Under the pieces are notes generated by a model that saw nothing but the letters and a program-made list of their open reading frames with translations, was not told where the DNA came from and did no database searches. DNA of 64,000 nucleotides, taken from positions 1 through 64,000 of the forward strand of contig JAEPQE010000001.1 in the NCBI GenBank assembly GCA_017640665.1, read 5' to 3'. The stretch's first letter is position 1. Every line of letters starts with the position of its first letter. Both the position numbers and the translations under genes were made by a program. This stretch comes from Balneolaceae bacterium. Lineage in GTDB: Bacteria; Bacteroidota; Rhodothermia; Balneolales; Balneolaceae. Shown one piece after another: positions 9,865 to 35,344 of this stretch.

Positions 9865-11232
9865 TTAAAACCTGAACGTAAATACCGTACACCCTTCTTT
9901 ACTCGTGGTAACGTTGAGCGTTCCACTGTGCATTCTCATAATTTGTCTCGAAAGACTAAGCCCTATTCCCGAGCCTCCGTTTTCCGTGTTGGATTTACTG
10001 GTTGTATAAAAGGGCACAAAAATCTTTTCTTTCACCGATTCTTTAATTCCAGGTCCATTATCTTGTACTTCTAAAACAGGATGACCTGATCCATCAATTC
10101 TACCTCTGAGAATGATTTTAGGGTTCGAAGTCTCAGACAATGCTTTGAAAGCGTTTTTAACAATGTTGATGAGCGCTTGATCGATAAGCTGGGAATCAGC
10201 GGTTATTTCGAGCGTCTCAGGATCTACCATTACTTCCATCTCTACTCTGCGCCGTGTTGCTTCCCCTTTCATCAGATTTCTAACCCGTTCAAGCACTTCT
10301 TTTACGGTAAGAACTTCAAAAATCGGCGTGGGGATTTGTGTGATGTTTCGATATGAGTTCACAAAGCGCATTAACCCCAAGCTTCTTTTATTAATAGTTC
10401 CCAAAGCGTCTTTAACATCCTTGAGTGTTTCCTGGGGAATCGGTTCCGGGGATTCTGAACCAAAAACATCCCCCATCAACATAGAATTCACCGTGTCTGA
10501 TAAAGACGCAATTGGAGTGATTGAATTCATGATTTCATGCGCCAATACCTGAGTCAGATTTTGCCAGGCCTCCATTTCTTTTTCATCCAATTCTGTGGAT
10601 ATGTTTTGAAGCGAGATCAGTTTATAGTTATCGCCCTTCATCCTGAATTCGGTTGCATAAATTGCCAGCTGAAGTTTCTCGGAACCAATCGAGCAATTCA
10701 GTAAGGTTCGGGCTCCACTTTTTAAACCAATAACCGTTTCGAATAATGGAGTACTTACTTCTTTCAGTTGATCCACATTTCTCAATACCGAAACATCAAG
10801 CAATCGCTTCGCCGCAGTATTAAAAAGTTCAATTTCTCCTTTCTGATTGTAAGAGAACAATCCAATACCCACATGTTGAACAACAGTTTGAAGATATCGG
10901 TAACTCTCCTCCCCTTTTGAACGTTCGGATTTGAATTTTTCGATGATATCATTGAAGGCATCGTTGAGCGAAGCAAACGATTTATTGCCTGCACGATTGG
11001 AAAACGTTTGAGAGAAGTCGTTATAGCTGATTGCTTCAAAGAAACGTTGAAGCTGTTTGTTGGTAGTCTCCACATAGCGAATCAGGTTAATAACCTGCGT
11101 TATTATAAGCACACCAATTAAGGCACTACTCACAAAGTATTGAGTATTCATCACCATATAAATGAACAGCCCAACCATGCCAAACATGAATATCACGCGG
11201 GTAATTACCCCTATCCTAAAGCGGGCAATCAT
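9865..11232 (-). CDS. NtrY-like sensor histidine kinase, array regulator
   Basis: A 455-residue kinase with two close N-terminal membrane helices (about 12-50) and practically no periplasmic sensor, then a HAMP-like or helical linker, a PAS domain (about 110-215) and a kinase core. The H-box is LAHEIMNSITPI with His232. The ATPase motifs are DNGPGI and GGSGIGLSLSRQI, with a FYTTS lid. The H-box and MNSITPI wording are typical of NtrY-type kinases that pair with sigma-54 activators. It follows the NtrC-type regulator by 66 nt, so the two form a two-component pair. With no large outside domain, the signal is probably read in the membrane or by the PAS domain. The link to the permease array is inferred from the shared sites and position. 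Confidence 0.88.
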   Translation of the reverse strand: MIARFRIGVITRVIFMFGMVGLFIYMVMNTQYFVSSALIGVLIITQVINLIRYVETTNKQLQRFFEAISYNDFSQTFSNRAGNKSFASLNDAFNDIIEKFKSERSKGEESYRYLQTVVQHVGIGLFSYNQKGEIELFNTAAKRLLDVSVLRNVDQLKEVSTPLFETVIGLKSGARTLLNCSIGSEKLQLAIYATEFRMKGDNYKLISLQNISTELDEKEMEAWQNLTQVLAHEIMNSITPIASLSDTVNSMLMGDVFGSESPEPIPQETLKDVKDALGTINKRSLGLMRFVNSYRNITQIPTPIFEVLTVKEVLERVRNLMKGEATRRRVEMEVMVDPETLEITADSQLIDQALINIVKNAFKALSETSNPKIILRGRIDGSGHPVLEVQDNGPGIKESVKEKIFVPFYTTSKSNTENGGSGIGLSLSRQIMRMHSGTLNVTTSKEGCTVFTFRF

Positions 11233-12720: not shown

Positions 12721-12735
12721 ACAAATACCGTACCT
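12721..12735 (-). promoter_or_regulatory. candidate sigma-54 promoter for the regulator gene
   Basis: On the minus strand, AGGTAC-GGTAT-TTGT starts at 12735. The GG of the -24 box and TTG of the -12 box have the correct 10-nt spacing, and the expected C at -12 is T. It lies 46 bp before the regulator ATG. Its first base is 64 bp from the near edge of UAS A (12799), one helical turn more than the 54 bp on the other side. Confidence 0.45.
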
Positions 12736-12798: not shown

Positions 12799-12835
12799 TG
12801 TTCGATATCGGACACTAAGTGTATCAAAATGAACG
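12799..12835. promoter_or_regulatory. UAS A: double palindrome between regulator and adaptor
   Basis: TGTTCGATATCGGACA (12799-12814), a 5-bp spacer, and TGTATCAAAATGAACG (12820-12835). The two TGT-N10-ACA half-sites repeat every 21 bp, two helical turns, which suits a dimeric Fis-type activator binding the same DNA face. Its relatives are UAS C (20010), UAS B (27615) and UAS D (35239). The 285-bp gap 12676-12960 holds no gene. Confidence 0.8.
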
Positions 12836-12888
12836 GTCATAAGCTACAAAACGATCAATAAATACATTAAACCGTAACTTTTTGTATT

Positions 12889-12904
12889 TGGCACAGTAAT
12901 TGAC
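12889..12904 (+). promoter_or_regulatory. sigma-54-like promoter of the adaptor unit
   Basis: TGGCAC-AGTAA-TTGAC matches the sigma-54 consensus TGGCAC-N5-TTGCW, apart from A in place of C at -12. It begins 54 bp after UAS A and 72 bp before the adaptor start codon. Confidence 0.6.
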
Positions 12905-12960
12905 TTAACGAGATGCAAAACGATTAATCGACACACTTTAAAAATATCTCGTGCACTTTT

Positions 12961-14217
12961 ATGGGAATGGATAAAAAAATTAAAAAGAAAACCTGGACCA
13001 CAAACCGCATCATCATGCTTGTGGCTGGGATAGCTGTTATTAGTTTCTTCATCTACACGTTTATGTTTGCTGACTTCAGGTCCACGCTTAATGTTGAGAG
13101 AGATAAACTCACCATTGCAACAGTTTCTGAAGATTCTTTTCAGGAGTTCATCCAGGTAACAGGGAATATCCAACCAATTAATACCAGTTTTTTGGATGCA
13201 ATTGAAGGCGGAGTGGTACAGCACGTAGTGTTGGAATCGGGTGCTATGGTTTCACCCGGGGACACCGTACTTATTTTAACCAACTCAAACCTCCAGCTTT
13301 CGGTATTGAATCAGGAAGCGAGTTTATATGATCAGATCAATAATGTTCGAAATTCGAGATTAAACCTTGAGCAAAATAGTCTTCGAATTAAAGAGCAGTT
13401 AGCCAATGCTGAATACCAACTGGATATTCTTAAACCACAATTTGATCGGTCACAAAGTTTGTATGAGCAAAACCTGATCTCTAAGCAAGATTTTGAGGCG
13501 GTAGCAGAAAATTATGAGTACGAGAAAAAGAGATATGAACTAACGTATGAGTCTTTTATTAAGGATTCCATCCAAACTATAAATCAACTTCGCCAACTGG
13601 ATGATTCTGAATCACGAATGTATCGCAGTTTGACTGCTGTTCAGGGAATTCTTGACAATCTTGTAATCAGGGCCCCTTTAGAAGGACAGCTAACAACTAT
13701 CGAAATGCAGCCCGGACAATCGATTTCCCAAGGCGAAAGGGTCGGTCAGGTCGATATGCTGGATAATTTTAAAGTTCGGGTTGGTGTAGATGAATTCCAC
13801 CTTTCAAGAATCACAACCGGACTTAAGGGAACCTTTGATTTTGCCGGTTCCGAATATGATCTGGAAATCACTAAGGTTTACCCCGTAATTAATAATGGGC
13901 AGTTTCAGGTTGATATGGAATTTGTTGGAGATGCTCCTACTGGCATTCGCAGAGGACAACGTGTAAGGATAAGACTTGAACTGGGCGATGCTTCAACTGC
14001 TGTATTACTTGAAAAAGGAGGCTTTTTCCAAACTACCGGAGGAAGCTGGGTGTACAAGTTGAATGCAGATGAGACTAAAGCTGAACGGCATAATATCCGT
14101 CTTGGACAGCAAAACCCGGAATTTTTTGAAGTAGTGGAAGGTCTGGAACCCGGTGATAAAGTGATTATTTCCAGCTATGATACTTTTGGCGATAACGAAG
14201 TTTTGGATTTGGAGTAA
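12961..14217 (+). CDS. HlyD/MacA-type periplasmic adaptor subunit
   Basis: A 418-residue membrane-fusion protein. A basic N-terminus precedes one inner-membrane anchor (about 17-38). Next come the first half of a lipoyl domain (TGNIQPINTSFLDAIEGG...VVLESGAMVSPGD), a coiled-coil hairpin (about 110-225), and the second lipoyl half with LVIRAPLEGQLTTI and MQPGQSISQGE. A beta-barrel and membrane-proximal domain ends in GLEPGDKVIISSYD. Such proteins connect an inner-membrane ABC transporter to an outer-membrane TolC-type channel. It is the only adaptor in the array, so it may serve many permeases. No TolC homologue is in the window. ATG at 12967 is an alternative start. It is the first gene after the UAS A promoter. 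Confidence 0.9.
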   Translation: MGMDKKIKKKTWTTNRIIMLVAGIAVISFFIYTFMFADFRSTLNVERDKLTIATVSEDSFQEFIQVTGNIQPINTSFLDAIEGGVVQHVVLESGAMVSPGDTVLILTNSNLQLSVLNQEASLYDQINNVRNSRLNLEQNSLRIKEQLANAEYQLDILKPQFDRSQSLYEQNLISKQDFEAVAENYEYEKKRYELTYESFIKDSIQTINQLRQLDDSESRMYRSLTAVQGILDNLVIRAPLEGQLTTIEMQPGQSISQGERVGQVDMLDNFKVRVGVDEFHLSRITTGLKGTFDFAGSEYDLEITKVYPVINNGQFQVDMEFVGDAPTGIRRGQRVRIRLELGDASTAVLLEKGGFFQTTGGSWVYKLNADETKAERHNIRLGQQNPEFFEVVEGLEPGDKVIISSYDTFGDNEVLDLE

Positions 14218-14339
14218 TTTATGATTGGTTCTCAACTATTAATTTCGAAATGTCGAAGCATTCAGCTGACAGTATTAGACCGCTCAAAACCAAACTCCTA
14301 CAAACAAATTAAACACATACACACAAAACCTACACAACG

Positions 14340-15029
14340 ATGATTCAAGCAAAAAATCTAAAAAAGCTCTACATAACTGAAGATGTAGAAACTACGGCCC
14401 TAAACAACGTAAACGTTGAGATTAAGGAAGGGGAATTTGTAGCCATTATGGGACCTTCCGGATGCGGTAAATCTACCCTCCTAAACATTATGGGACTTCT
14501 TGATAACCCTTCTGATGGAGAATATAATTTTCTTGGTCACGAAGTTTCTTCCTACAGCGAACGCGAAAGAGCTCAGCTTAGAAAGGGTAACATTGGCTTT
14601 GTATTCCAGAGCTTTAACCTGATTGACGAGCTTACTGTTTTTGAAAATGTAGAACTTCCTCTTCTTTATTTAGGGATGGATGCTTCAGAACGAAAAGAAA
14701 AAGCCGAAGCTGCACTCGAGCGCATGAGTATGATGCACCGCCGAAATCACTTCCCTCAACAACTATCTGGTGGACAGCAACAACGTGTGGCTATTGCCCG
14801 GGCAGTAGTTGCAAATGCAAAACTAATTCTTGCCGATGAGCCTACGGGTAACCTCGATTCTGATCACGGTAACGAGGTAATGAAGCTTCTTGAAGAATTA
14901 AATGAAGCAGGAACCACCATTGTAATGGTAACTCACTCTCCTCATGATGCCGATTTCGCTACACGGGTAATCCACCTCTTTGATGGCCATGTTGTGACTG
15001 AGAATATGAAAGAAGGTTTCCACGTGTAA
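14340..15029 (+). CDS. MacB-type ABC transporter ATPase 1
   Basis: A 229-residue nucleotide-binding protein of the MacB/LolD/FtsE group. It has Walker [10 protein letters not shown] (38-46), a Q-loop in VFQSFNL, signature LSGGQQQR (142-149), Walker [14 protein letters not shown] (162-174) and the H-loop His199 in VTHS. All catalytic positions are intact. It would power mechanotransmission by MacB/FtsX permeases, where ATP use in the cytoplasm drives periplasmic movements without passage through the membrane. It is 122 nt after the adaptor gene and 87 nt before P1. It is the only fully canonical ATPase for the fourteen permeases here, and may therefore be shared. Confidence 0.93.
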
Positions 15030-15116
15030 ATTAGCTTTCAGCAAACAGCTCTCAGTTTTTGGTATAAAGTATGTCCAAAAGCTGGAGCCTAACGCTGGGC
15101 TTCAAGCTCAATAAGT

Positions 15117-17498
15117 ATGCTTAAGAACTACTTCAAACTCGCCTTTCGGAATATCGTCAAATACAAAAGCTATTCGGCAATAAATATTCTGGGGCTAGCT
15201 ACTGGTATCACGCTATGCCTACTCATACTAACTTATGTTAATCATGAGCTCAGCTATGACAGCTTTCATGAAAACAGTGATCGTATCGTTCGGGTAACCA
15301 TGAGCGATGAGGACGGTGAAATAGCAGTAACTCCTTCGATGGTAGCTCCATCTCTGGCATCTATCGCTCCGGAAATAGAAAACTGGGTTCGATTATATGA
15401 ACCTACACGATACAGCCCGGCAATAATAGGTGTTCAGAATCAGAAATTTCAGGAAAACAGTTTTCTATTTGCTGATTCTTCTTTCTTTGAAGTATTCACA
15501 TTTCAGTTTTTAAACGGAGACGCTAACAGTGCTTTGATAAACCCGGGAGCCCTCGTGTTAACAGAGTCGATAGCACGTAAGCTTTTTGGCTCTTTAGATG
15601 TAATAGGAGAAACCGTTTCAACGCAAATCTTTAATACCGAAACTGACTTTGAAGTAACCGGAGTGATTAGAGATATGCCTTCTAACTCACACTTCAGCTT
15701 CGATTATATCGCTTCTCTTTCCAGTTGGAGTTCCTGGTCTCAGCTTAACGATTCTGAAATCAGATCTGCTAATTTCTATACGTATTTAGTGTTGAATTCT
15801 TCGGAGTCTATTTCCCCACTTCAGGATAAAACTAATGCATTTGTAAATGAGCGAATTAAAGAACAACGGGATGTAAATCTGAATTTGGTTCCTTTATCTG
15901 AAATCTATCTTACATCTAATGCAGGAGCTGAGATTGCTCCGATGGGTGATATTTATAGGGTATATGGGTTTATGTTGATGGGGTTAGTGGTGTTGCTAAT
16001 TGCGATTATAAACTATGTGAACTTATCTACTGCCCGATCATCGAGACGAGCTACTGAAGTTGGTATCCGAAAAGCGTTGGGAGCCTATCGAAGCCAGTTA
16101 ATTAAACAGTTTTATGGCGAGTCTACCCTTATCACACTCATTTCTGTGATGATCTCCCTTATACTGGTTGAACTGTTTAATGAAGAATTCTTTGCATTGA
16201 TGGGCAAATCCATTCAATTCACTTTATTAAATGGTTATTCAGTCTGGATTTTAGTAGCCGGAATTGTTGTAGTAACTTCGTTATTGGCAGGCAGCTATCC
16301 GGCCATACTTCTTTCTTCCTTTAAGCCGGTAACTGTATTAAAGGGCATGATCAACAGCTCTTCATCGAGTTCTTTCCTTAGAAAAGGCTTGGTCATATCT
16401 CAGTTTTCCATTTCTACTTTTTTGATTATTAGTACCATTGTGATTTATCAACAAACCGACTTTGTGATTTCCACCAGTCTTGGTTTTGATAAAGAGTCTG
16501 TAATAGTACTCCCTGCCCGAGATCGATACTTAGCTCCAAAACAGGATGTATTGAAATCTGAGATACTTCGACAACCTGGGGTAATGAGTGCTACCTACAT
16601 GTCTAATATTCCGGGTAAAGTTTTTGGCGGTTACGGTGCACAGCATACTCCCGGAACTGACGCAATTAGCACTCAGGCCGGAGCCGCTGACAAAGACCTC
16701 GTAAAAACTCTAGGAATTGAACTTCTTGCAGGCGACGGATTTCCTGAATCTGAAGGGTATACTCTGGAGCAGGGCTATGTTTACCTGATTAATGAAACCC
16801 TGGCCAAAAGATTTGGCTGGACTCCCGAAGAGGCGTTAAATCAGCCGTTCAATGTATTGGGTAATCGCGAAGGCGAAATAGTTGGAGTTGTAAAAGACTT
16901 TAACTTTGCCTCGTTGCACGACGAAGTTAATCCACTCGCGCTTTTTATTAATCCTGATATGCATAACTATTTGCTTATCAAAGTAGCTCCAAACAGCACC
17001 CGGGAATCACTTACCGCCATTGAAGGAGTCTGGGATGAATTAGCACCTCACCGACCTTTTGAATTTGAATTTTTGGATCAGCAACTTGATCAACTCTATG
17101 AGCAGGAAGTACAAACCCGAAACCTGATTTCATTATTCTCGGTTCTGGCAATTTTTATAGCATGCCTTGGACTGGTTGGGCTTTCATCATTCCTGATTGA
17201 ACGCAGAGCTAAAGAAATTGGCATTAGAAAAGTTCTTGGTGCTTCCGTAGCAAATGTCGTCACCCTTTTAACAACAGATTTCCTCAAACTTGTAAGTCTT
17301 GGGTTTATTATCGGGGCTCCAATTGCCTGGTATGCGATGGAACAATGGCTAACCGGTTTTGCCTACAGAATTGAAATTGGAATAGCTGTATTCATTATAT
17401 GTGCCTTGCTTGGAATTATCATTGCGTTTTTAACTGTAAGCGGGCAGTCTGTTAAAGCCGCGCTTACGAATCCCGTCAACAGTCTGAAGAGTGAATAA
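15117..17498 (+). CDS. permease P1 (duplicated MacB/FtsX type)
   Basis: A 793-residue chain with the plan shared by P1-P14. TM1 (about 20-42) follows the family opening MLKNYFKLAFRN and precedes a MacB-type periplasmic domain. A three-helix FtsX block starts near 278 (NLSTARSSRRATEVGIRKALGA). Next comes a further TM near 425 (LRKGLVISQFSIS), a second periplasmic domain, and a second FtsX block near 671 (ERRAKEIGIRKVLGASV). Eight TMs in one chain make it a complete permease, not half of a MacB-like dimer. It ends NPVNSLKSE, a tail nearly constant across the array. It lies just after ATPase 1, in the same unit. The cargo is unknown. Confidence 0.92.
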   Translation: MLKNYFKLAFRNIVKYKSYSAINILGLATGITLCLLILTYVNHELSYDSFHENSDRIVRVTMSDEDGEIAVTPSMVAPSLASIAPEIENWVRLYEPTRYSPAIIGVQNQKFQENSFLFADSSFFEVFTFQFLNGDANSALINPGALVLTESIARKLFGSLDVIGETVSTQIFNTETDFEVTGVIRDMPSNSHFSFDYIASLSSWSSWSQLNDSEIRSANFYTYLVLNSSESISPLQDKTNAFVNERIKEQRDVNLNLVPLSEIYLTSNAGAEIAPMGDIYRVYGFMLMGLVVLLIAIINYVNLSTARSSRRATEVGIRKALGAYRSQLIKQFYGESTLITLISVMISLILVELFNEEFFALMGKSIQFTLLNGYSVWILVAGIVVVTSLLAGSYPAILLSSFKPVTVLKGMINSSSSSSFLRKGLVISQFSISTFLIISTIVIYQQTDFVISTSLGFDKESVIVLPARDRYLAPKQDVLKSEILRQPGVMSATYMSNIPGKVFGGYGAQHTPGTDAISTQAGAADKDLVKTLGIELLAGDGFPESEGYTLEQGYVYLINETLAKRFGWTPEEALNQPFNVLGNREGEIVGVVKDFNFASLHDEVNPLALFINPDMHNYLLIKVAPNSTRESLTAIEGVWDELAPHRPFEFEFLDQQLDQLYEQEVQTRNLISLFSVLAIFIACLGLVGLSSFLIERRAKEIGIRKVLGASVANVVTLLTTDFLKLVSLGFIIGAPIAWYAMEQWLTGFAYRIEIGIAVFIICALLGIIIAFLTVSGQSVKAALTNPVNSLKSE

Positions 17499-17509
17499 TT
17501 GGAGAAACT

Positions 17510-19942
17510 ATGCTTAAAAGTTATCTTAAAATTGCATTTCGAAATCTGGTCAAAAATCCTGGATACTCTTTCATCAATATTTTTGGGCTGGCGCTTGGTA
17601 TTACGGCATTCGTACTCATTCTGCTTTTTATTACCGATGAACTTAGTTATGACAGTTACCATGAAGAGTCAGATCGGATTTATCGTGTTTCAAGAGAATG
17701 GAAAAACCCTGATGGTGAAACCAGTCTGCATCTAGGGCATGTAGCCCCTCCCTTCGCTGAACTAATTAGAGAAGATTACCCTGATGATGTTCAGTATGCA
17801 GTCCGGTTTTTTGATGTATCTCCACTCATCAGTTATGAAGAAAAACATCTGATACAGGATCGCTTTTTCTTTGCAGACGCGGATGTATTTGAAGTTTTTT
17901 CATGGAATATGATAAAAGGAAATTCTTCTACGGCACTCTCCTCTCCTGATGGATTAGTCATTACAGAAAGTATGGCGGAGGTTTATTTTGGTGATGAAGA
18001 TCCAATAGGAAAAGCACTTGAATTCTCTCTTCAGGGCACTGAAATGGTATTTCAGGTGAATGGAGTTATAGAGGATGTACCTGAAAACTCACATTTTCAG
18101 TTCGATTTCCTGGCCTCAATGCAACCAGTAGTTCAATTTTATGGCGGCTACGAACAAATGATGCAGAATTTTGGGAGTAATAACTTTTCAACTTACTTGC
18201 TGCTTTCTGAGCATACCAAACCGGAAGAGTTGGAAGCCAGATTTTCAGCTTTAATGGACAAAATTTTTCCACCTGATGAAGCCGATGGAGATGCCAGAGC
18301 TTCCGATTTTATGAAGCTTCATTTAATGAATGTTACGGATATCCATCTCCATTCCTACCTCGATTCTGAAATTGAAGCCAACGGTAATATCGAATATGTA
18401 TATATCTATATAGCCGTGGCAATTTTCATCCTACTCATTGCCTGTATCAATTTTATGAATCTATCTACCGCACGTTCTGCCCGCCGATCAAGTGAAGTGG
18501 GCTTAAGAAAGGTGATGGGAGCTCAACGTTCTTCTTTAGTACGTCAGTTTATGGGTGAATCTTTTCTATTGGCCTTTCTGGCATTGATCCTTGGAGTCAT
18601 ATTCGTTGAGGTACTCACCCCCTATTTCAATGATTTTGTAGAAAAAGATCTGGCTCTTAATTACTTCTCAGATATAAGATGGGCTCTGGGACTTCTCGGA
18701 GTGGTTGCTTTCATTGGACTTGTTGCAGGAAGTTACCCGGCTTTATTTTTGTCTTCCTTTCAACCTGCTAGCGTACTTAAAGGGTCTTTTCAAGCGGGAG
18801 GAAAACATCAATGGTTCCGCTCTGGACTGGTGGTACTCCAGTTTACAATTTCTATTGCATTGATCGCAAGCATGGGTATTGTGTACAATCAGTTAGAATA
18901 CGTTCAGGAAAAGGAATTAGGCTTTAATAAGGATAATATCGCCGTACTTCCGGTTAGTCCTGAGATTGAGAACAATTATGTTGATATCCGAAACCGTCTG
19001 ATTCAGCAGCCGGGAATTATGGATGTATCCATGCAAAGTCGTGTTCCATCAGGCCGTCTGCTCGATTCTCAAGGCGGGTCTGCCGAAATAAATGGAGAAT
19101 TAGTAGAAATTGATTTCCGAATCGCCGATATCCATGTTAGCCACAATTTTGTTGATTTATTTGGATTAGATATTGTTGCCGGTCGCAGTTTTGATATCAA
19201 CCTTGCAAGCGATTCTTCAGAAGCATTTGTGCTGAATGAATCTTCTATCTATCGCTTAGGCTACGTTTCTCCGGAAGCGGCCATTGGCAAACAATTTAAT
19301 TATGGAGGAAGACAAGGGTTCATCACAGGAGTTGTAAACGACTTTCATTTTGAGTCACTCCATCAAAGTATAGCCCCAATTGTATTTGTGATCTCCAATG
19401 GAAGGAATAATACGATTGCAGTAAAGTTCAGCGATACCTATCAGGAAGAAACCATTGCTTACCTCGAAAATACCTGGGCTGATTACCGACCTAACTTTCC
19501 TTTCACTTATTCTTTGATTGAAGATAATTTTGCAGAGCAATACCAGGGAGAAGAGCGTCTCGGAAAGGTATTTGGCTATTTTGCTCTCCTAGCAATTATT
19601 ATTGCTGCCCTTGGGCTCTTTGGATTAGCATCTTTCACCATCCAGCAACGTGTAAAAGAAATTGGGATCAGGAAGGTGCTTGGAGCTTCTGTCAGCCAGA
19701 TCGTATATCTGCTCTCAACCAACTTTGCGAAGCTCGTCTTAATAGCTTTTCTGCTGGCAACTCCGACTGCTTATTTCGCTATGAATAAATGGCTTGAAAA
19801 CTTTGCATACTCAGAAGGTATAAGTCCATGGATATTTATAATGGGTGGCGGAATTGCCCTTGCGATTGCCTTGCTTACAATCAGTTATCAGGCAATTAAA
19901 TCTGCTCTGCTTAATCCTGCTCATACCTTAAAAAGCGAATAA
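17510..19942 (+). CDS. permease P2 (duplicated MacB/FtsX type)
   Basis: 810 residues. The start is fixed by GGAG (17501-17504) and the family opening MLKSYLKIAFRNLVKNPGYS. It begins 11 nt after P1 ends and is the last gene of the adaptor unit, before the hairpin at 19966. FtsX block 1 starts near residue 297 (STARSARRSSEVGLRKVMGAQ, followed by QFMGES) and block 2 near 687 (FGLASFTIQQRVKEIGIRK). The first periplasmic domain is rich in Met and Phe, and carries the acidic stretch PPDEADGDARASD. The tail is NPAHTLKSE, where most paralogues have NPVDSLKSE. It shares one unit with the adaptor, ATPase 1 and P1, so these four may form the ancestral transporter set. Confidence 0.92.
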   Translation: MLKSYLKIAFRNLVKNPGYSFINIFGLALGITAFVLILLFITDELSYDSYHEESDRIYRVSREWKNPDGETSLHLGHVAPPFAELIREDYPDDVQYAVRFFDVSPLISYEEKHLIQDRFFFADADVFEVFSWNMIKGNSSTALSSPDGLVITESMAEVYFGDEDPIGKALEFSLQGTEMVFQVNGVIEDVPENSHFQFDFLASMQPVVQFYGGYEQMMQNFGSNNFSTYLLLSEHTKPEELEARFSALMDKIFPPDEADGDARASDFMKLHLMNVTDIHLHSYLDSEIEANGNIEYVYIYIAVAIFILLIACINFMNLSTARSARRSSEVGLRKVMGAQRSSLVRQFMGESFLLAFLALILGVIFVEVLTPYFNDFVEKDLALNYFSDIRWALGLLGVVAFIGLVAGSYPALFLSSFQPASVLKGSFQAGGKHQWFRSGLVVLQFTISIALIASMGIVYNQLEYVQEKELGFNKDNIAVLPVSPEIENNYVDIRNRLIQQPGIMDVSMQSRVPSGRLLDSQGGSAEINGELVEIDFRIADIHVSHNFVDLFGLDIVAGRSFDINLASDSSEAFVLNESSIYRLGYVSPEAAIGKQFNYGGRQGFITGVVNDFHFESLHQSIAPIVFVISNGRNNTIAVKFSDTYQEETIAYLENTWADYRPNFPFTYSLIEDNFAEQYQGEERLGKVFGYFALLAIIIAALGLFGLASFTIQQRVKEIGIRKVLGASVSQIVYLLSTNFAKLVLIAFLLATPTAYFAMNKWLENFAYSEGISPWIFIMGGGIALAIALLTISYQAIKSALLNPAHTLKSE

Positions 19943-19965
19943 CAAGCTTTTAGTTGGTTAGCCTT

Positions 19966-19999
19966 TAGCGGTTAGATATCTGAAAAATACTAACCGCTA
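19966..19999 (+). terminator. hairpin between P2 and UAS C
   Basis: TAGCGGTTAG (19966-19975) and CTAACCGCTA (19990-19999) form a perfect 10-bp stem with a 14-nt loop. The following T tract is poor (TTCTCTT), so termination may be partial. It lies 23 bp after the P2 stop codon and immediately before the next control region. Confidence 0.5.
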
Positions 20000-20009
20000 T
20001 TCTCTTACC

Positions 20010-20046
20010 TGTACGATAACGTACACCTTCTGTATAAATCCGTACA
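20010..20046. promoter_or_regulatory. UAS C: double palindrome upstream of P3
   Basis: TGTACGATAACGTACA (20010-20025), a perfect palindrome at its outer seven bases, then CCTTC and TGTATAAATCCGTACA (20031-20046). It has the same 16+5+16 layout as UAS A, B and D. Confidence 0.8.
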
Positions 20047-20099
20047 TGTTTTCCATCAAAACCATTGTTTTTGAGCTGATTTAATAGGTTCCGATAGTT

Positions 20100-20115
20100 T
20101 GGTATGGTTGTTGGA
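20100..20115 (+). promoter_or_regulatory. sigma-54-like promoter of unit P3-P5
   Basis: TGGTAT-GGTTG-TTGGA begins 54 bp after UAS C and 98 bp before the P3 start codon. It has GG at -24 and TTG before -12 as in the other array promoters, with G in place of C at -12. Confidence 0.55.
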
Positions 20116-20197
20116 ACAAGCTGGGTATAGAATCTAAATTGAGATCTGGATATAGGGTTCTATCTCAAAAAATTGACTTCAACATAGCTTCTTTACC

Positions 20198-22612: not shown

Positions 22613-22650
22613 AAACCAGCTATAGCCTAATCGTGTAAAAACTAAAAATT

Positions 22651-25062: not shown

Positions 25063-25098
25063 ATCAACTATTACCCAATTGCACAAAGCTAGAAAATT

Positions 25099-27558: not shown

Positions 27559-27573
27559 TTTAGCAAGCAGTTT

Positions 27574-27609
27574 GCAGTAAGCAGAATAATACTACAAACT
27601 GCTTACTGC
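27574..27609 (+). terminator. hairpin between P5 and UAS B
   Basis: GCAGTAAGCAG (27574-27584) and CTGCTTACTGC (27599-27609) pair perfectly over 11 bp with a 14-nt loop. An alternative pairing uses GCAGTTTG and CAAACTGC. No T tract follows. It sits directly after P5 and 5 bp before UAS B. Confidence 0.45.
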
Positions 27610-27614
27610 CGAAC

Positions 27615-27651
27615 TGTTCAATAGCGGACACTCATTGTCTGAAATCGAACA
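27615..27651. promoter_or_regulatory. UAS B: double palindrome upstream of P6
   Basis: TGTTCAATAGCGGACA (27615-27630), CTCAT, and TGTCTGAAATCGAACA (27636-27651). The first half-site is closest to that of UAS A, with identical TGTTC and CGGACA ends. Confidence 0.8.
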
Positions 27652-27704
27652 GTAATTATTCAAAAAAAGACGGTTTTACTATAAATAAGAGCTTCCTATC
27701 AATT

Positions 27705-27720
27705 TGGTACGGTTGTTGAA
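27705..27720 (+). promoter_or_regulatory. sigma-54-like promoter of unit P6-P8
   Basis: TGGTAC-GGTTG-TTGAA begins 54 bp after the end of UAS B and about 57 bp before the P6 start. It has A instead of C at -12. Confidence 0.55.
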
Positions 27721-27764
27721 ATAACGTTACTGTAATTGAGAATACAACATATTGTGGGGAGATG

Positions 27765-30149
27765 ATGTTTAAAAATTACTTCAAAATTGCTTTTCGTAAT
27801 GTATCAAAACAGAAAGGGTACACTTTAATAAATACTCTTGGTTTGGCAATTGGAATGGGTGTGTGCTTGTTTCTCGTACTCTTAACTCAGTATGCCTTTA
27901 CTTTTGATCAATATCATGAAAACTCCGATCGAATCTACAGGGTAGCGGACAAAATCAAGCAGCAAAACGGAAGTATTCTTGATGTAGCGATTTCTCCTAG
28001 CCCCTGGGGAAAGGCCCTGGAAGCAGATTATCCAGAGATTGAAGAATCTACACGTTTTCTATACCGGGGAGCGGCTATCGAGTATGGTGATAAAATTCTT
28101 CGGCAGGGCATCACTTATGTAGATGAAGGGATTTTCGACATCTTTTCCTATCCGTTTAAATACGGCACTCCCGAAGGAGCCCTTTCTCAACCCAACAATA
28201 TTGTTATTACAGAGGAGATGTCGGTTCGTTATTTTGGTGAAGAGAACCCGGTAGGGGAAACACTTCTGTTAGATAAAACACCATTTCAGGTTACAGGGGT
28301 ACTTAAAAAGCTCAACCCACAATCCAGCTTTGCATTTAATTCTCTGGTACCATTTTCGGGGCTGACCGAAGAAGACTATGCATCAATCAACGATTGGAGA
28401 TCTCATAATCTATACACGTATCTACTGTTGAAGGAAGGGACTAATGTCGCCGAGCTGGAGTCAAAACTTCCAGATTTTATTGAAAAACATGTTGGGGAAG
28501 AGTTCCGTGACCGATATGTGCCGCATCTGCAAAATATTGGAGATTTACTTCTCAGATCAAATTTATATGCTGAGCATGGAGAGACTTTAGAAGTGTCTTA
28601 TGTATACATTTTTATAGCGATAGCTCTTCTCATACTGATTATAGCCTGTATTAACTTCATCAATCTATCTACTGCACAAGGACTGAAGCGAGCAAAAGAA
28701 GTGGGAGTTCGAAAGGTAATGGGGGCCTTTAAAAAACAACTCGTATTTCAATTTTTAGCTGAGGCGCTATTAATTGCATTTTTTGCGGTTGTTATAAGTA
28801 TGATGCTTGTTGAGCTCGCTCTCCCTTGGTTTAATGATCTGGCTGAATGGAGTGTTCAGGCCAGCTATCTTGCTAATCCCGTTTATATGGTTTCTATATT
28901 TCTGATTGTGTTACTAGTTGGGGTATTGGCAGGTGGTTATCCGGCCTTTGTGTTATCTGCGTTTAAGCCTGCTGCTGTTTTAAAAGGAGAAAAGACGGGA
29001 GCAAAAGGAAATTCGTTCCTTAAAACGGGATTAGTAGTAGCCCAATTTACTGTAGCTATATTTATGATTGTAAGTACTGCAGCTGTGGATAAGCAACTTT
29101 CTTTCCTGAAAAGCAAAGATCTTGGGTTCAACAAAAATGATGTACTTGTAGCAGGAGTACCCAGTGAAATTTCAGGTGACGAACTTGAGTTAGTCCGGGA
29201 TGAATTATTCAGAATTCCCGGAGTCACTAAAGTATCTTTCAGCTCAAATATTCCAGGAAATGAATCGGGTAATCGAAGTCAGTTTTACCCTGAAGGTGCC
29301 TTTGCTGAGGATGGCTTACTTGTGAACACCTATTCAATTGATGACTACTTTATCTCGCAATTCGATTTAACTTTGATTGATGGAAGAGACTTTAGCAGTG
29401 ATTTAGCTTCAGATTCGGCAAATTCAGTCATCATAAATCAGGCTGCAGTTACAAAATTCGGATGGGAATCTCCTATTGGAAAAACCATTGTTACCGAAAA
29501 CAGGGAGAAAGAAAGAACTTATTTTGATGTGGTAGGAGTGTTGGAGGACTTCCACTATGAAACCCTCCATTCGTCTATAGAACCTTTAATCATTCGAAAA
29601 AATCCGAATCAATTTTACGACTTAAGTATCCGGCTGAATACTGCAAATCTGGAAGAAACTACAGCTCAGGTATCTGATGTACTGAAAGGGTTTAATGAAG
29701 GTATTCCTGTTTGGTATTATTTTCTTGAAGATGATATAGCGACCGATTATACCACAGAAGAGGTGATTGGAGAAATGCTCAGATACTTCGCCTATCTCAC
29801 CATTTTCATAGCTTGCCTTGGTTTATTGGGATTAGTCTCATTCACTGTAATAAACAGAAAGAAGGAAATTGGAATACGTAAAGTATTAGGTGCATCAGTG
29901 AGTAATATTGTTCAAACTATTTCTACCGACTTCTTAAAGTTGGTAATATTCGGCTTTGTAATAGGTGCTCCACTCGCTTTTTTTCTGGTTCAACAATGGT
30001 TAAACAGCTTTGCCTACAGTACTAGTCCGGATGCCCTTATTTTCGTAGGATCTGGTGCAACAATTATTGCGATCTCCCTTCTGACAATAGGATATCAGGC
30101 TGTAAAAGCAGCTTTAGCTAATCCTGTAGAAAGTTTAAAGAATGAATGA
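27765..30149 (+). CDS. permease P6 (duplicated MacB/FtsX type)
   Basis: 794 residues from the second of two adjacent ATG codons. ATG at 27762 would add one Met, but paralogues open MFKNY or MLKNY. A GGGGAG (27756-27761) directly abuts the start, much closer than a normal ribosome-binding site, so initiation may be unusual. FtsX block 1 (about 278) reads NLSTAQGLKRAKEVGVRKVMGA with QFLAEA in place of QFxGES. Block 2 (about 673) reads INRKKEIGIRKVLGASV. The first periplasmic domain is short and contains VAISPSPWGKALEADYPEI, resembling P12 (VTAPWGEAAL) at the same place. First gene of the third unit. Tail NPVESLKNE. Confidence 0.92.
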   Translation: MFKNYFKIAFRNVSKQKGYTLINTLGLAIGMGVCLFLVLLTQYAFTFDQYHENSDRIYRVADKIKQQNGSILDVAISPSPWGKALEADYPEIEESTRFLYRGAAIEYGDKILRQGITYVDEGIFDIFSYPFKYGTPEGALSQPNNIVITEEMSVRYFGEENPVGETLLLDKTPFQVTGVLKKLNPQSSFAFNSLVPFSGLTEEDYASINDWRSHNLYTYLLLKEGTNVAELESKLPDFIEKHVGEEFRDRYVPHLQNIGDLLLRSNLYAEHGETLEVSYVYIFIAIALLILIIACINFINLSTAQGLKRAKEVGVRKVMGAFKKQLVFQFLAEALLIAFFAVVISMMLVELALPWFNDLAEWSVQASYLANPVYMVSIFLIVLLVGVLAGGYPAFVLSAFKPAAVLKGEKTGAKGNSFLKTGLVVAQFTVAIFMIVSTAAVDKQLSFLKSKDLGFNKNDVLVAGVPSEISGDELELVRDELFRIPGVTKVSFSSNIPGNESGNRSQFYPEGAFAEDGLLVNTYSIDDYFISQFDLTLIDGRDFSSDLASDSANSVIINQAAVTKFGWESPIGKTIVTENREKERTYFDVVGVLEDFHYETLHSSIEPLIIRKNPNQFYDLSIRLNTANLEETTAQVSDVLKGFNEGIPVWYYFLEDDIATDYTTEEVIGEMLRYFAYLTIFIACLGLLGLVSFTVINRKKEIGIRKVLGASVSNIVQTISTDFLKLVIFGFVIGAPLAFFLVQQWLNSFAYSTSPDALIFVGSGATIIAISLLTIGYQAVKAALANPVESLKNE

Positions 30150-30284
30150 GGCTACCAAAAAGAGAAGAATGTATATCAAAAAGAAAATTCTAGAATAATT
30201 GCTTTTAGCTACTAGCCGTTAGCCTTAATCAACACTCAGAATCAGGCGGACAGCTATAAAACTAAGAGCTAAACCCTTTTTACC

Positions 30285-32696
30285 ATGCTTAAAAACTATC
30301 TGAAAATCGCCTTCCGTAATCTACTCCGAAATAAATCGTATTCATTTATAAACATATTTGGGCTTGCGATCGGACTTACATGTACTATCCTGATTGGGCT
30401 TTATGTCATCCATGAGCTTTCGTATGACAAATTTCATGAAAACGGAGATCGTATCTATCGTGTAGTGGAAAGCTATAACAGTGAGCAGGAAGAAAACTGG
30501 TATGCCACCACCTTCTCAGCACTCGCTCCAACCCTCAAAAGCGAGTTTCCATCCATAAAGCATGTTACCCATGTTTATCCAACCAATGGATTAGTTACCG
30601 GAGGCGAAAACCAGAAATATCAGGAAGACACTATCATCTATGGTGATTCTGCGTTCTTTGAAATGTTTTCTTTTCCTCTTTTATCAGGTGACCCCACTTC
30701 TGTACTTAATCAACCTTTAACCGTTGTAATTACAGAAAGTGTTGCTCAAAAGTTTTTTGGTAAAGAGAACCCGGTTGGTAAAAGTATTTCATTCAAAGGT
30801 CAAAGAAGCACTGTTGAATTTGAAATAACCGGTGTAGCTGAAAACCCTCCCTCCAATTCACACATTCAATTTGAGTATGTGTTCTCTTATGAGAGTTTGA
30901 GAAACCTTAGGCCCTGGGAGTACAACAAATGGTATTACCCACCCGTGTATACGTATGTTGAGTTGGCTTCGAATGAATCTGTTACTGATCTGAAGTCTGT
31001 TTTCCCAGCGTTCCAGGAAAAATATGTTGGTGCAGAAGCTCACCTTCGTAATCTTGACTTACAACCTATTGGTGATATTCGATTATTCTCTGATTATCAG
31101 AATGAATTGTCCACGACCTCAGATATCAGCTACATTTACTTATTTTCAGCAATTGGGATTTTTATTCTCCTCATTGCTTGTATCAATTTCATGAATTTGG
31201 CAACTGCTAAATCTATGAAACGATCAAGAGAAGTGGGTATGAGGAAAACACTGGGAGCCCGAAGAAAACAACTGATTTGGCAGTTTCTGGGCGAAGCATT
31301 TATCATTACCTCTATCAGCCTAACCCTTGCCTTCCTGATTTCTGAAATTGTACTTCCCTATTTCAATGCAATATCCGGCAAAGAACTAGCAATGGGAGCT
31401 ATAGGCCTTAGCTCATGGATGGTTGGAGCATTTGGAATAATACTCATAGTGGGTTTAATAGCAGGTAGTTATCCCGCTTTTTATCTCTCTTCCTTTAAAC
31501 CTATTACCGTACTTAAAGGGATTAAGGATACTAGTGGAAGTTCGGATTCTTTATTTAGAAAGGGATTGGTCATATTCCAGTTCTTCATTTCTACGGGGCT
31601 CATCTTTGGGACATTTATTGTGACCCAGCAGCTGGATTTTCTTCAAAACGACCGTCTCGGCTTTAATAAAGAACAGGTAGCGATTATCCCTGTTCGTGAA
31701 ACCACTGATCAATTCAATATAAAATCACTTAAAGAAGAAATACTGAGAATTCCCGGCGTGGAGTCGGCTGCTGCGGTATCCGGCGTTCCGGGTATAAGTA
31801 GCGGAATTCACTCATTTGGAGCTGTCCCTGATGATAACAAAACGGATACGCTTGGTGTTATGACCATTACAAGTGACCATTCTTTTGTTGAAACTCTTCA
31901 GCTGAACTTATTGGAAGGAAGGGATTTCTCCGAAGCATTTAGCACCGATGAGACTCAGGCGTTTATCATCAATCAAACAGCCGCGGAAAAATTTGGCTGG
32001 GATAATCCTGTTGGAGAAGAGCTAACTCTTCGTTTTTACACAACAGATTTGGTTGAAAAAAAAGGAACCGTTGTCGGCATGGTAGAAGATTTCCAATACC
32101 ACTCCCTGCATTCAGACATCGATCCGATTCTGATTCAGGTGTTCTCCGCTACCTTTTATCACGACTATCTCGCTATTCGGTTTACTTCGGATAATCTGCA
32201 GGCTTCTCTTCAGGATGTAGAGGCAAAATGGAGTGCCTTCAATCCGGATCGACCTTTCGAATATACTTTCCTGGATGATACCTTCGACTCTATGTACAAG
32301 GCTGAGGAACAACTCAGTATGATTTTCAACATGTTTGCAGTTATCGCAATTGCCATTGCCTGCCTCGGGTTATTCGGGTTAGCTTCGTACAGCACAGAGC
32401 GCCGGTTGAAGGAGTTGGGAATCAGAAAAGTACTTGGAGCATCCGTGGCGGATATCCTCACGCTTTTATCCAAAGATTTCCTAAAACTGGTAGTGATTGG
32501 GTTCCTCGTTTCTGTTCCGTTTGCCATCTTCTTTATGAATAAATGGCTTCAGAATTTTTCAGAGCGTATAGAAATAAACTTTGCCCTGTTTTTCTTTGTA
32601 GCCGTAGTCGCTATTTCTGTCGCTGTAATTGCAGTGAGTTATCAATCTATCCGCGCTGCAGTGATGAATCCTGTTGATAGTTTAAAACGGGAATAA
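30285..32696 (+). CDS. permease P7 (duplicated MacB/FtsX type)
   Basis: 803 residues. It lies 135 bp after P6, an unusually long spacer inside a unit, with no double palindrome in it. FtsX block 1 (about 282) has NLATAKSMKRSREVGMRKTLGA followed by QFLGEA. Block 2 (about 680) has TERRLKELGIRKVLGASV, where Leu replaces the Ile of the KEIGIRK consensus. TM8 is followed by FSERIEINF instead of the usual FAYRI. The first periplasmic domain opens with VESYNSEQEENWYATTFS. Tail NPVDSLKRE. The gene is followed by the P8 hairpin, whose terminator-like form may separate P7 from P8 in part. Confidence 0.92.
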   Translation: MLKNYLKIAFRNLLRNKSYSFINIFGLAIGLTCTILIGLYVIHELSYDKFHENGDRIYRVVESYNSEQEENWYATTFSALAPTLKSEFPSIKHVTHVYPTNGLVTGGENQKYQEDTIIYGDSAFFEMFSFPLLSGDPTSVLNQPLTVVITESVAQKFFGKENPVGKSISFKGQRSTVEFEITGVAENPPSNSHIQFEYVFSYESLRNLRPWEYNKWYYPPVYTYVELASNESVTDLKSVFPAFQEKYVGAEAHLRNLDLQPIGDIRLFSDYQNELSTTSDISYIYLFSAIGIFILLIACINFMNLATAKSMKRSREVGMRKTLGARRKQLIWQFLGEAFIITSISLTLAFLISEIVLPYFNAISGKELAMGAIGLSSWMVGAFGIILIVGLIAGSYPAFYLSSFKPITVLKGIKDTSGSSDSLFRKGLVIFQFFISTGLIFGTFIVTQQLDFLQNDRLGFNKEQVAIIPVRETTDQFNIKSLKEEILRIPGVESAAAVSGVPGISSGIHSFGAVPDDNKTDTLGVMTITSDHSFVETLQLNLLEGRDFSEAFSTDETQAFIINQTAAEKFGWDNPVGEELTLRFYTTDLVEKKGTVVGMVEDFQYHSLHSDIDPILIQVFSATFYHDYLAIRFTSDNLQASLQDVEAKWSAFNPDRPFEYTFLDDTFDSMYKAEEQLSMIFNMFAVIAIAIACLGLFGLASYSTERRLKELGIRKVLGASVADILTLLSKDFLKLVVIGFLVSVPFAIFFMNKWLQNFSERIEINFALFFFVAVVAISVAVIAVSYQSIRAAVMNPVDSLKRE

Positions 32697-32744
32697 AACT
32701 ATTTGAAAGTGAACAAAATCTGGTTTTAATGTAACCATAAGTTT

Positions 32745-32786
32745 AAATCTTCGTGTTATGCTTAGACCTTAACACGGAGATTTTTT
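32745..32786 (+). promoter_or_regulatory. terminator-like hairpin hiding the P8 ribosome-binding site
   Basis: AAATCTTCGTGTTA (32745-32758) pairs with TAACACGGAGATTT (32770-32783) through 14 positions, one of them a G-U pair. The loop has 11 nt and six T residues follow (32781-32786), overlapping the stem end. The right arm contains GGAG (32776-32779), 7 nt before the P8 ATG. The same hairpin can therefore stop transcription or mask the ribosome-binding site. It may act simply as an intrinsic terminator, or as an attenuator that lets P8 be expressed only under some condition. Confidence 0.65.
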
Positions 32787-35150
32787 ATGCTTAAGAATTA
32801 TATAAAGACGGCGTTTCGGGGATTCAGACGCCAAAAAAGCTCTTTTTTCATCAATTTAGCGGGGCTTTCCATCGGCTTAACCTGTAGCTTTCTCATCTTC
32901 CTTTGGGTAATTGATGAGATGAACATGGATCAGTATCACGCCGATTCTGATCGCATTGTTCAGATTATGGAATTTCAAGAGTACTCGGATGAAACCTTTG
33001 CCACACTCTCCACCCCTGGAATTATTGCCAGAAATATCAAAGAAGAATTCCCCGAGTTTGAATATGCCGCAAATTACACATGGAATGGAGACCGGTTATT
33101 CTCTAAAGATAATCTGAACTACTATGAAAACGGGCTGGATGTAGAAAACGATTTTTTCAAAATTCTGAGCATTGATTTAATCTACGGGAACAGAGATGAG
33201 CTTCTAGTCCAACCAAATACAGTAGTTCTTTCCGAAGAAACTGCTAAGAAATATTTCGGCGAATCGAACCCGGTAGGTCAGGCTATTACTTACAACAATA
33301 CCACCGAATTGATGGTAACCGGTGTGTTCAGGAAGATGCCAGATAATTCCACTTTCCAATTCGATGTCCTACTCAATTATGATGATTGGCTGGAGACCAA
33401 TGAATGGGCAACCGATTGGGGTAATAATGGTCCCAGAGCTATAGCCAAGCTTGTTCCCGGTACCAATCAGCAAGAATTAAACTCCAAAATTGTCAATTAC
33501 ATAAAGGGAAAAGATGAAGAGGGTGATTCAAACGTAGAAGTGTTTGTATATCCTTTTGCTCAACGTTATTTATATGGTCAGTTTGAGAATAAAGTTCAGT
33601 CTGGTGGCCGTATCGAGTATGTTCGCCTTTTTATTATTGTAGCAATTTTCGTACTTCTGATTGCTTGCATCAACTTTATGAACCTTAGTACAGCTAAAGC
33701 TACCAAACGAGCTAAAGAGGTTGGAATTCGTAAATCTATCGGAGCTAGTCAGGGCTCATTAATCGGGCAGTTCATTGGCGAATCCATGATTATTAGTTTC
33801 TTCTCGTTGTTTATCTCAATCATAATGGTAGAGTTGTTCCTTCCCATATTTAATAATATTACAGGAAAAGAAATCTCCGTTGATTATTCGAACCCAACAC
33901 TTCTGTCGATTTTTATTGGCACTGTATTAATCACAGGCTTGGTATCCGGAAGTTATCCTGCTTTTTATCTTTCATCGATAGAGGCTGTCAAGTCTTTGAA
34001 AGGTTCCCTTAGGTCTTCTTTTAAGGAAGTATTCGCCCGGAAAGGTCTGGTTGTATTTCAATTCAGCCTTTCTGTTATCCTCATTATTTCGACTATTATT
34101 ATCTATCGCCAAATTCAGTTTACACAACAGAAAAATCTTGGATACAAAAAAGAAAATCTGGTGTTTTTTACTGTTGAGGACGAAATCTATGACAGATGGG
34201 AAACTTTTAAAGAACAAGTTGAAGGAATTCCGGGAGTACAACATGTATCAAGAAGCAGTTCTACTTTCCTCGGCAGGAATTCGAACACATCCGGTTTAGA
34301 CTGGGAAGGCAAAGACCCTGATTCGCGAATTTTGTTTGAAAATGTTTTAGCTGATTACGATTTACAGGAAACCATGGGTTTTGAATTGGTTGATGGACGA
34401 TTTTTTTCAGAAGAGTTTGGAATTACTGACACCTCGAAAATCATATTTAACGAACGGGGTATTGAAGTAATGGGTCTCGAAGATCCTGTTGGAAAAGTAA
34501 TCACCCTTTGGGATGACTATGAAATGGAAATAATCGGGGTAGTGAAAGACTTCAACTTCCAAAGCCTGAGAAGCGAAGTGGAACCACTGTTTTTCCGTTA
34601 TAGAGAAAACTCAGGCTGGCGGGGATTTGTCCGCATCGAAAGCAGTAATATTACTTCTACTCTTTCAAATCTGGAAGAAACGTATAAATCGTTTAATGCA
34701 AATTACCCCTTCGAATATAATTTCATGGACGACCAATACGCTGCACTGTACCGCAGCGAAATGAGAATCGGGGAACTTGCGAAGTACTTCTCCATCTTCG
34801 CTATACTTATATCTTGTTTAGGTTTGTTCGGGTTGTCTGCTTTCACTGCCGAGCAGCGCTCTAAAGAAATCGGTGTTCGAAAAGTATTGGGAGCTTCTGT
34901 ACGCAGCTTAGTACTACTCATCTCGAAAGACTTCACCAAGCTTGTTTTGATTTCAATCGCTGTGTCTATTCCGGTTTCCTGGTATCTAATGAGTATCTGG
35001 ATTGAAGATTTTGCTTATAGTTCAGGAATTGAATGGTGGGTATTCTTTGCAGCAGGGATTTGTGCACTTGTTATCGCCTGGCTAACAGTAAGCTGGCAAT
35101 CTGTAAAAGCAGCACTAATGAATCCAGTTAAAAGTTTGAAGAGCGAGTGA
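32787..35150 (+). CDS. permease P8 (shortest of the array)
   Basis: 787 residues, the shortest permease, and the only one whose start sits directly under a hairpin. The opening is MLKNYIKTAFRGFRRQKSSF. After TM1 it has MNMDQYHADSDRIVQIMEF, losing the SYD of most paralogues. FtsX block 1 (about 278) reads NLSTAKATKRAKEVGIRKSIGAS followed by QFIGES. Block 2 (about 666) reads AEQRSKEIGVRKVLGAS. The first periplasmic domain is Asn/Trp-rich (NEWATDWGNNGP near 210). The second domain carries a NSNTSGLDWEGKDPDSRI stretch. Last gene of the third unit, ahead of the hairpin at 35176. Tail NPVKSLKSE. Confidence 0.92.
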   Translation: MLKNYIKTAFRGFRRQKSSFFINLAGLSIGLTCSFLIFLWVIDEMNMDQYHADSDRIVQIMEFQEYSDETFATLSTPGIIARNIKEEFPEFEYAANYTWNGDRLFSKDNLNYYENGLDVENDFFKILSIDLIYGNRDELLVQPNTVVLSEETAKKYFGESNPVGQAITYNNTTELMVTGVFRKMPDNSTFQFDVLLNYDDWLETNEWATDWGNNGPRAIAKLVPGTNQQELNSKIVNYIKGKDEEGDSNVEVFVYPFAQRYLYGQFENKVQSGGRIEYVRLFIIVAIFVLLIACINFMNLSTAKATKRAKEVGIRKSIGASQGSLIGQFIGESMIISFFSLFISIIMVELFLPIFNNITGKEISVDYSNPTLLSIFIGTVLITGLVSGSYPAFYLSSIEAVKSLKGSLRSSFKEVFARKGLVVFQFSLSVILIISTIIIYRQIQFTQQKNLGYKKENLVFFTVEDEIYDRWETFKEQVEGIPGVQHVSRSSSTFLGRNSNTSGLDWEGKDPDSRILFENVLADYDLQETMGFELVDGRFFSEEFGITDTSKIIFNERGIEVMGLEDPVGKVITLWDDYEMEIIGVVKDFNFQSLRSEVEPLFFRYRENSGWRGFVRIESSNITSTLSNLEETYKSFNANYPFEYNFMDDQYAALYRSEMRIGELAKYFSIFAILISCLGLFGLSAFTAEQRSKEIGVRKVLGASVRSLVLLISKDFTKLVLISIAVSIPVSWYLMSIWIEDFAYSSGIEWWVFFAAGICALVIAWLTVSWQSVKAALMNPVKSLKSE

Positions 35151-35175
35151 GAACTCATGCTTTCAGCGAACATCG

Positions 35176-35208
35176 TTCAGCTTTTTGATTCTTGTACAAA
35201 AAGCTGAA
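35176..35208 (+). terminator. hairpin between P8 and UAS D
   Basis: TTCAGCTTTTTG (35176-35187) and CAAAAAGCTGAA (35197-35208) form a perfect 12-bp stem with a 9-nt loop. Little T follows. It lies 25 bp after P8 and 30 bp before UAS D. Confidence 0.5.
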
Positions 35209-35238
35209 TGCTGATTACTTCTTAGCTGACAACTAACA

Positions 35239-35275
35239 TGTCCGTTAGCGTACACCCTCTGTATAAAACCGAACA
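35239..35275. promoter_or_regulatory. UAS D: double palindrome upstream of P9
   Basis: TGTCCGTTAGCGTACA (35239-35254), CCCTC, and TGTATAAAACCGAACA (35260-35275). It resembles UAS C most closely, and the similarity continues in patches down to the promoter. Confidence 0.8.
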
Positions 35276-35328
35276 TCTTTTCTTCTAAAATCAGTGCTTT
35301 TAAGCTTATTTATGCTGTTTGGTTAGTT

Positions 35329-35344
35329 TGGTATGATTGTTGGC
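35329..35344 (+). promoter_or_regulatory. sigma-54-like promoter of unit P9-ATPase 2
   Basis: TGGTAT-GATTG-TTGGC begins 54 bp after UAS D and 51 bp before the P9 start. It would drive a unit of about 15 kb ending at 50650. Confidence 0.55.

Follow-up and report, generated by a model that had tools for sequence, protein, structure and literature searches.

How might a bacterium switch on fourteen related permease genes that stand one behind the other? This question is raised by the window analysed here, the first 64,000 nucleotides (forward strand) of contig JAEPQE010000001.1 from a Balneolaceae bacterium (assembly GCA_017640665.1), in which an array of MacB/FtsX-type permease genes lies beside the gene of an NtrC-family response regulator. 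The original prediction held that four identical 37-bp double palindromes, each at a constant distance from a sigma-54-like promoter, split the array into four units fired by a single activator, most simply this neighbour. We followed up this claim computationally and consider it highly probable that the element serves as an upstream activator site pair for the adjacent regulator, through which the array would be co-activated in a sigma-54-dependent manner. The observation as such was confirmed, and its principal reading is probably correct.

The permease array and its four tandem elements

The array is encoded on the forward strand and starts with an HlyD-family periplasmic adaptor (12961..14217) and an ABC ATPase of the MacB/LolD type (ATPase 1, 14340..15029), followed by the permeases P1 and P2 (15117..19942), P3-P5 (20198..27558), P6-P8 (27762..35150) and P9-P14 (35380..49948) and by a second ABC ATPase (ATPase 2, 49967..50650). 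Adaptor and ATPases were assigned with Pfam and NCBIfam, P1 and P2 with Pfam, and P3 to P14 as open reading frames in combination with a genome-wide MacB_PCD search, which yielded a match in all fourteen permeases. Domain scans of the permeases covered P1 and P2 with Pfam, revealing two MacB_PCD and two FtsX stretches in each, and P1 and P3 with NCBIfam. For P10, the ATG at 37848 is a likelier start than an upstream GTG. In NCBIfam, the adaptor, the ATPases, P1 and P3 matched best to components of the darobactin exporter (DarBCD) and to ADOP permeases, but scores stayed below the cut-offs for DarBCD (NF038010, NF038007, NF038008; adaptor 222.7 of 450 bits, ATPases 274.7 and 251.6 of 375 bits, P1 100 and P3 140.8 of 700 bits) and for the ADOP permease family TIGR03434 (P1 269.8 and P3 265.6 of 622.3 bits).

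All four tandem palindromes (16+5+16 bp, plus strand) are found at the predicted positions. Site 1 (12799..12835) is located between the regulator and adaptor genes, while sites 2 (20010..20046), 3 (27615..27651) and 4 (35239..35275), obtained by pattern search, occupy the three largest gaps between permeases (255, 203 and 229 bp; other gaps 2-135 bp) and split the fourteen permeases 2+3+3+6. The elements are not identical, as had been claimed, since any two of them share 24-31 of 37 bases. Their proposed structure, TGT-N10-ACA repeated at 21 bp, is exact in seven of the eight palindromes, the exception being the imperfect second palindrome of site 1, which ends with ACG; the proposed site consensus TGTNCRWTANCGKACA agrees with the first palindrome at all four sites. 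The constant spacing holds throughout: in each case the first promoter base lies at +90 from the element start and 54 from the last base of the element. The sigma-54-like promoters, recognised by pattern and by alignment with relatives, are TGGCACAGTAATTG (12889..12902, +), predicted to serve adaptor-ATPase 1-P1-P2, TGGTATGGTTGTTG (20100..20113, +) for P3-P5, TGGTACGGTTGTTG (27705..27718, +) for P6 onwards and TGGTATGATTGTTG (35329..35342, +) for P9-P14-ATPase 2. Pairwise, they are identical at 8-13 of 14 bases, and all four have GG at -24 and G at -12 at the fixed 10-bp spacing; elsewhere in the window, TGGYAY-N5-TTG occurs three more times, always on the minus strand. A genome-wide search (3,796,084 bp, 9 contigs) for element plus promoter, as proposed in the original prediction, returned just these four copies, all at the predicted spacing; a looser pattern added none and a reversed-pattern control gave zero matches. 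Further MacB_PCD proteins are encoded elsewhere in the genome, and the element is absent there by strict and looser patterns.

Could the four copies simply have arisen along with permease units that were duplicated in tandem, and persist without any selection for co-regulation? The permeases are indeed all of one family, and sites 2 and 4 agree at 31 of 37 positions in the element and at 36 of 53 in the spacer. Against such an origin, the remaining five spacer pairs agree at 12-24 of 53 bases compared to 24-28 of 37 in their elements, and in relatives the element stands before different permeases as well as non-permease genes, with hardly any change in spacing. We give the duplication scenario almost no credence and regard the elements as probable regulatory sites.

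Geometry in close relatives and comparison with known sites

To describe the geometry, 51 readings were merged into 45 elements; they came from the window and from 11 other genomes, from which 28 stretches had been fetched and 27 entered the comparison. With the element-to-promoter distance left free between 60 and 129 bp in the search, the promoter was found at 88-90 bp in 41 of the 45; four elements at 78, 79, 91 and 102 bp were excluded from base counts. Palindrome positions and promoter stand out in the 41 aligned sites with a weakly conserved spacer between them, a pattern that arises partly by construction, as the search demanded TGGYAY-N5-TTG and near-matches of the element. Likewise, GG at -24 and G at -12 are present in 41 of 41 sites by construction, and it is the distance to the element that provides the independent point. 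Within the first palindrome, further C, CG and CG positions are conserved among close relatives. The canonical GC at -12 is absent from these 41 sites, as the base after TTG is A (73%) or G (27%) and the sequence is never TTGC; the text of PMC12316311, in the part covered, gives TGC as canonical at -12. The spacer of the 41 sites also contains a weakly conserved A-run/T-run, which might be a candidate bend site.

An SOS-box reading of the element was dropped: the half sites of the SOS box stand in the opposite order to TGT...ACA. The arrangement resembles NtrC/NifA systems in its palindromic TGT-N10-ACA, in paired sites about 100 bp upstream of a -24/-12-like promoter and in an activator composed of receiver, AAA+ and Fis-type helix-turn-helix (HTH) domains; the nifH upstream activating sequence (UAS) is a palindromic TGT-N10-ACA according to the covered portion of PMC10590331. 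It differs from NtrC/NifA sites in the extra conserved C, CG and CG, the 21-bp pair spacing and the promoter mostly at 88-90 bp, and from the systems as a whole in the four copies per array, in GAFTDA instead of GAFTGA in the activator and in TTGA/TTGG instead of TTGC at -12.

Co-occurrence of regulator and element

The proposed activator (11299..12675, minus strand) contains a receiver (PF00072), a sigma-54 AAA+ domain (Sigma54_activat, PF00158) and a Fis-type HTH (PF02954), which places it among NtrC-type regulators; it scored below the cut-offs of the PEP-CTERM response regulator (TIGR02915; 426.1 versus 502.6 bits) and of NifA (316.9 versus 528.85 bits). Among 58 genomes, 13 of which are outside the quality set (at least 90% complete, at most 5% contaminated), a relative of the regulator at E ≤ 1e-100 was detected in 12, its own genome included. 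Element plus promoter occurred in the same 12 genomes and in none of the other 46, with the reversed control at zero in all 58; a stricter element pattern still recovered 10 of the 12. In the genera g4 and g19, members lacking the regulator (G032 and G029) also lack the element. The nominal Fisher value for regulator versus element in the 58 genomes is 1.1e-12; it ignores kinship and, as the genomes are related and most sites lie in the locus of the regulator, overstates independence and is no fair probability. Since regulator, sites and array mostly form one locus, much of the 12/12 match can be explained by the whole locus being gained or lost as one piece. Of more help here are sites outside the array, which stand before permease or hydrolase genes. 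In G002 this applies on the contig of the array itself, at a distance of 2.2 Mb, and in G015 at 0.5 Mb as well as on another contig. In G019 such sites lie on three further contigs; this genome is a draft, and some of these contigs may adjoin the array.

A second explanation to be weighed is that a different regulator, either a repressor or another activator, binds the palindromes, while the adjacent protein acts elsewhere. TGT/ACA half sites are common among sigma-54 activators; in Desulfovibrio, three motif groups show them at distances of 9, 11 or 12 bp, as described in the covered part of PMC4641369. The genome carries ten PF00158 matches, namely the regulator, two other strong ones and seven weak ones (20-32 bits), and rpoN, which exceeded the cut-off in 54 of 58 genomes, is present as well. 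The two other strong activators were found in 42 and 53 of the 58 genomes and, being far commoner than the element, do not track it, whereas the element stays beside relatives of the adjacent regulator across phyla. A different binder is thus improbable, and the claim of an adjacent NtrC-family activator for the four promoters is the best reading and has gained strong comparative support. The exact limits of the units are less certain.

To assess the distribution beyond the 58 genomes, we used the best 80 of a longer list of named loci from a search with the regulator; three had too little upstream sequence and were dropped, leaving 77. The nearest relative among the listed matches is 81% identical and derives from a Balneola MAG, which suggests a relative of Balneola as the source of the window. 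Allowing at most one mismatch, 56 of the 77 loci have the palindrome in the 500 bp before the regulator gene and 21 lack it; the reversed pattern was found in 0/77 and a control inside the regulator gene gave 2/77. By record label, it was found in 37 of 54 Bacteroidota and 19 of 23 others, the latter including records labelled only 'bacterium'. Where at least 2.5 kb of upstream sequence were available, 59 of 67 loci encode an adaptor, ATPase or permease there (adaptor 53, permease 42), a count that stands without a background control in a setting where ABC ATPases are common, and eight have no transporter genes upstream. Palindrome and exact promoter were both present in 35 of the 77 loci, with C (13), G (16), A (3) or T (3) following TTG. 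Their distance spans 80-165 bp, so that the rigid 88-90 bp belongs to close relatives. We make no claim of helical phasing across phyla, since the small Rayleigh values rest on a cluster at about 89 bp and on five periods tried.

In relatives, four copies of the element precede proteins of the PF00144 beta-lactamase family, which follow directly downstream (L161, 5841-6959; L174, 4272-5396; L180, 8561-9583; L183, 511-1527); the L180 element has 4 mismatches in 16 positions. A TonB-receptor/SusD pair is located between P8 and the next site in genome G012. Hydrolases and receptor pair point to the cell envelope and do not thereby fix a substrate.

The sigma-54 contact loop of the regulator reads GAFTDA in all 12 genomes and GAFTGA in the two other strong activators. 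Among the 80 named loci, GAFTDA was counted 69 times, GSFTDA nine times and neither twice, a sample not free of bias as one of the six search peptides behind it contained AFTDA. In the covered text of PMC4641369, GAFTDA is listed among loop variants that would keep activity, and according to the part of PMC2941729 that was covered, a G-to-D change in this loop of NorR leads to escape from repression and constitutive activity.

A candidate divergent promoter at site 1

On the minus strand, a candidate sigma-54-like promoter AGGTACGGTATTTG (12722..12735, NGGYAY-N5-TTG) faces the response-regulator gene. The pattern, whose first base (mostly A, not T) was relaxed after the sequences had been seen, occurs in this orientation within 260 bp of the element start in 11 of the 12 genomes, compared to 17 of 2400 base-shuffled segments; the distance is 90-101 bp in ten genomes and 201 bp in one, and one genome is without it. 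Site 1 may be a bidirectional enhancer that also serves the regulator and kinase genes, and the divergent promoter suggests positive autoregulation of the regulator. This promoter had not been mentioned in the original prediction; a possible action of site 1 in both directions is new here.

A SpoIIE-domain phosphatase gene (7193-9730, minus strand) follows the kinase gene, and relatives are likewise placed in G014 and G002; the phosphatase is possibly an extra output of the regulator-kinase operon.

The partner kinase

The histidine kinase (9865..11232, minus strand), whose gene comes next after that of the regulator, has two hydrophobic N-terminal stretches according to hydropathy analysis. 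A relative was recovered at 81 of 89 loci, and in 64 of these 81 no hydrophobic stretch starts beyond residue 60. The remaining 17 have one later stretch, in most cases around residue 114-123; for three (L053, L072, L171) the start codon was probably set too far upstream. In the sequences inspected, hydropathy of the kinase from the window and its relatives revealed no long outside domain between the two membrane stretches, and the partner kinase thus seems to have no outside sensor domain.

Bce-type modules use an OmpR-family regulator, in contrast to the NtrC-type regulator and sigma-54-like promoters described here; the many permeases sharing two ATPases and one adaptor are another difference. 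As far as the descriptions covered go, there is a likeness in the hydropathy of the kinase, which resembles the intramembrane-sensing kinases of Bce-type systems in Firmicutes, and in the placement of a two-component kinase beside an ABC transporter. It is tempting to speculate on a sigma-54 counterpart of Bce, in which the kinase hairpin would read the state of transporter or membrane, a self-amplifying bidirectional enhancer would turn the permease set into one switch, and the design would be used across Balneola relatives, Bacteroidota, Acidobacteriota, Aminicenantes, KSB1, Zixibacteria and others. We regard this broader reading as rather doubtful.

Transcription units within the array

Do the four promoters then define four units, as proposed? 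Directly before the ATG of P8, a 14-bp hairpin with a T-run (32745..32786, +; z -2.81) carries GGAG in its 3' arm, and its stem is kept with changed bases in the sister genome G002. Because of this hairpin the unit P6-P8 is uncertain: the element would still co-regulate the array, but a terminator or a hairpin at the ribosome site could uncouple P8 from P6-P7. On the other hand, transcripts may read through the hairpin, whose loop is longer than the limit of 8 set in the terminator scan and which is therefore absent from the list of that scan; in G001 and G014, the intergenic stretches upstream of P8-like genes have no hairpin of this form. We take an uncoupled P8 as a serious possibility, albeit one below an even chance.

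Hairpins were also marked before sites 2, 3 and 4 of the window (z -2.95, -3.83 and -3.55). A terminator hairpin as a fixed part of the module was nevertheless rejected, since z < -2 in base shuffles was reached at 13 of 29 internal sites versus 6 of 29 control stretches. Consensus scans of the window, run up to 32590 and then over the rest, gave terminator-like sites in about the shuffled number (12 versus 14.3 and 16 versus 14.4) and fewer sigma-70-like sites than in the shuffles (42 versus 53.4 and 34 versus 49.7). Imperfect hairpin repeats rich in AGC/TTAG words occupy the gaps 19943-20009, 27559-27614, 35151-35238 and 30150-30284, and similar-looking repeats stand before sites in G002.

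Discussion

What the sequences show are the elements with their spacing and the promoter-like sequences, along with their conservation and co-occurrence with the regulator. Binding, activation, autoregulation, co-transcription and physiological role, as we infer them from the sequence comparisons, would combine as follows. Two regulator dimers would bind the palindromes 21 bp apart, i.e. separated by about two helical turns, with centres at about -108 and -87 relative to the predicted start. The AAA+ ring would then open RNA polymerase-sigma-54 at the -24/-12 promoter beginning 54 bp past the element end. A single phosphorylation signal from the partner kinase could thereby yield up to four transcripts across the array, while the divergent promoter at site 1 would supply more regulator and kinase. 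The array itself would represent alternative duplicated permeases with a shared adaptor and two ATPases, most likely employed in an envelope response or in a response based on export of antimicrobial compounds.

The mechanism as such is textbook. What is new is the regulon and its occurrence in several phyla, together with autoregulation as a likely feature and a kinase apparently devoid of an outside sensor domain. A description of the regulon was not found in the literature searched, which consisted mostly of openly readable papers. Closest is a study from 2025 (PMC12316311), the covered part of which predicts sigma-54 promoters at FtsX-like ABC permeases of the antimicrobial-peptide type (COG0577), calls this first evidence and names gamma-Proteobacteria, Opitutia and Bacteroidia for the enrichment. 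A word search of its main text for 'UAS', 'upstream activat' and 'Balneol' gave no hits, and the text covered links these permeases to no particular activator or site, unlike in our proposal. In Flavobacterium psychrophilum, the covered part of PMC9723704 describes three PF00158 proteins and links sigma-54 targets to envelope stress.

For widespread MacB/FtsX-type permease arrays, for whose control no description was found in this literature, our results thus propose a regulator together with its binding site and the layout of the promoters, in phyla whose sigma-54 circuits are little studied; that such circuits are less explored outside Pseudomonadota is also stated in the covered text of PMC12316311. 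With the motif, sequenced genomes can be searched for more genes of this regulon. As the transporter genes have an apparently sensor-less kinase for a neighbour, the idea that transporters act as sensors outside Firmicutes also becomes open to direct tests.
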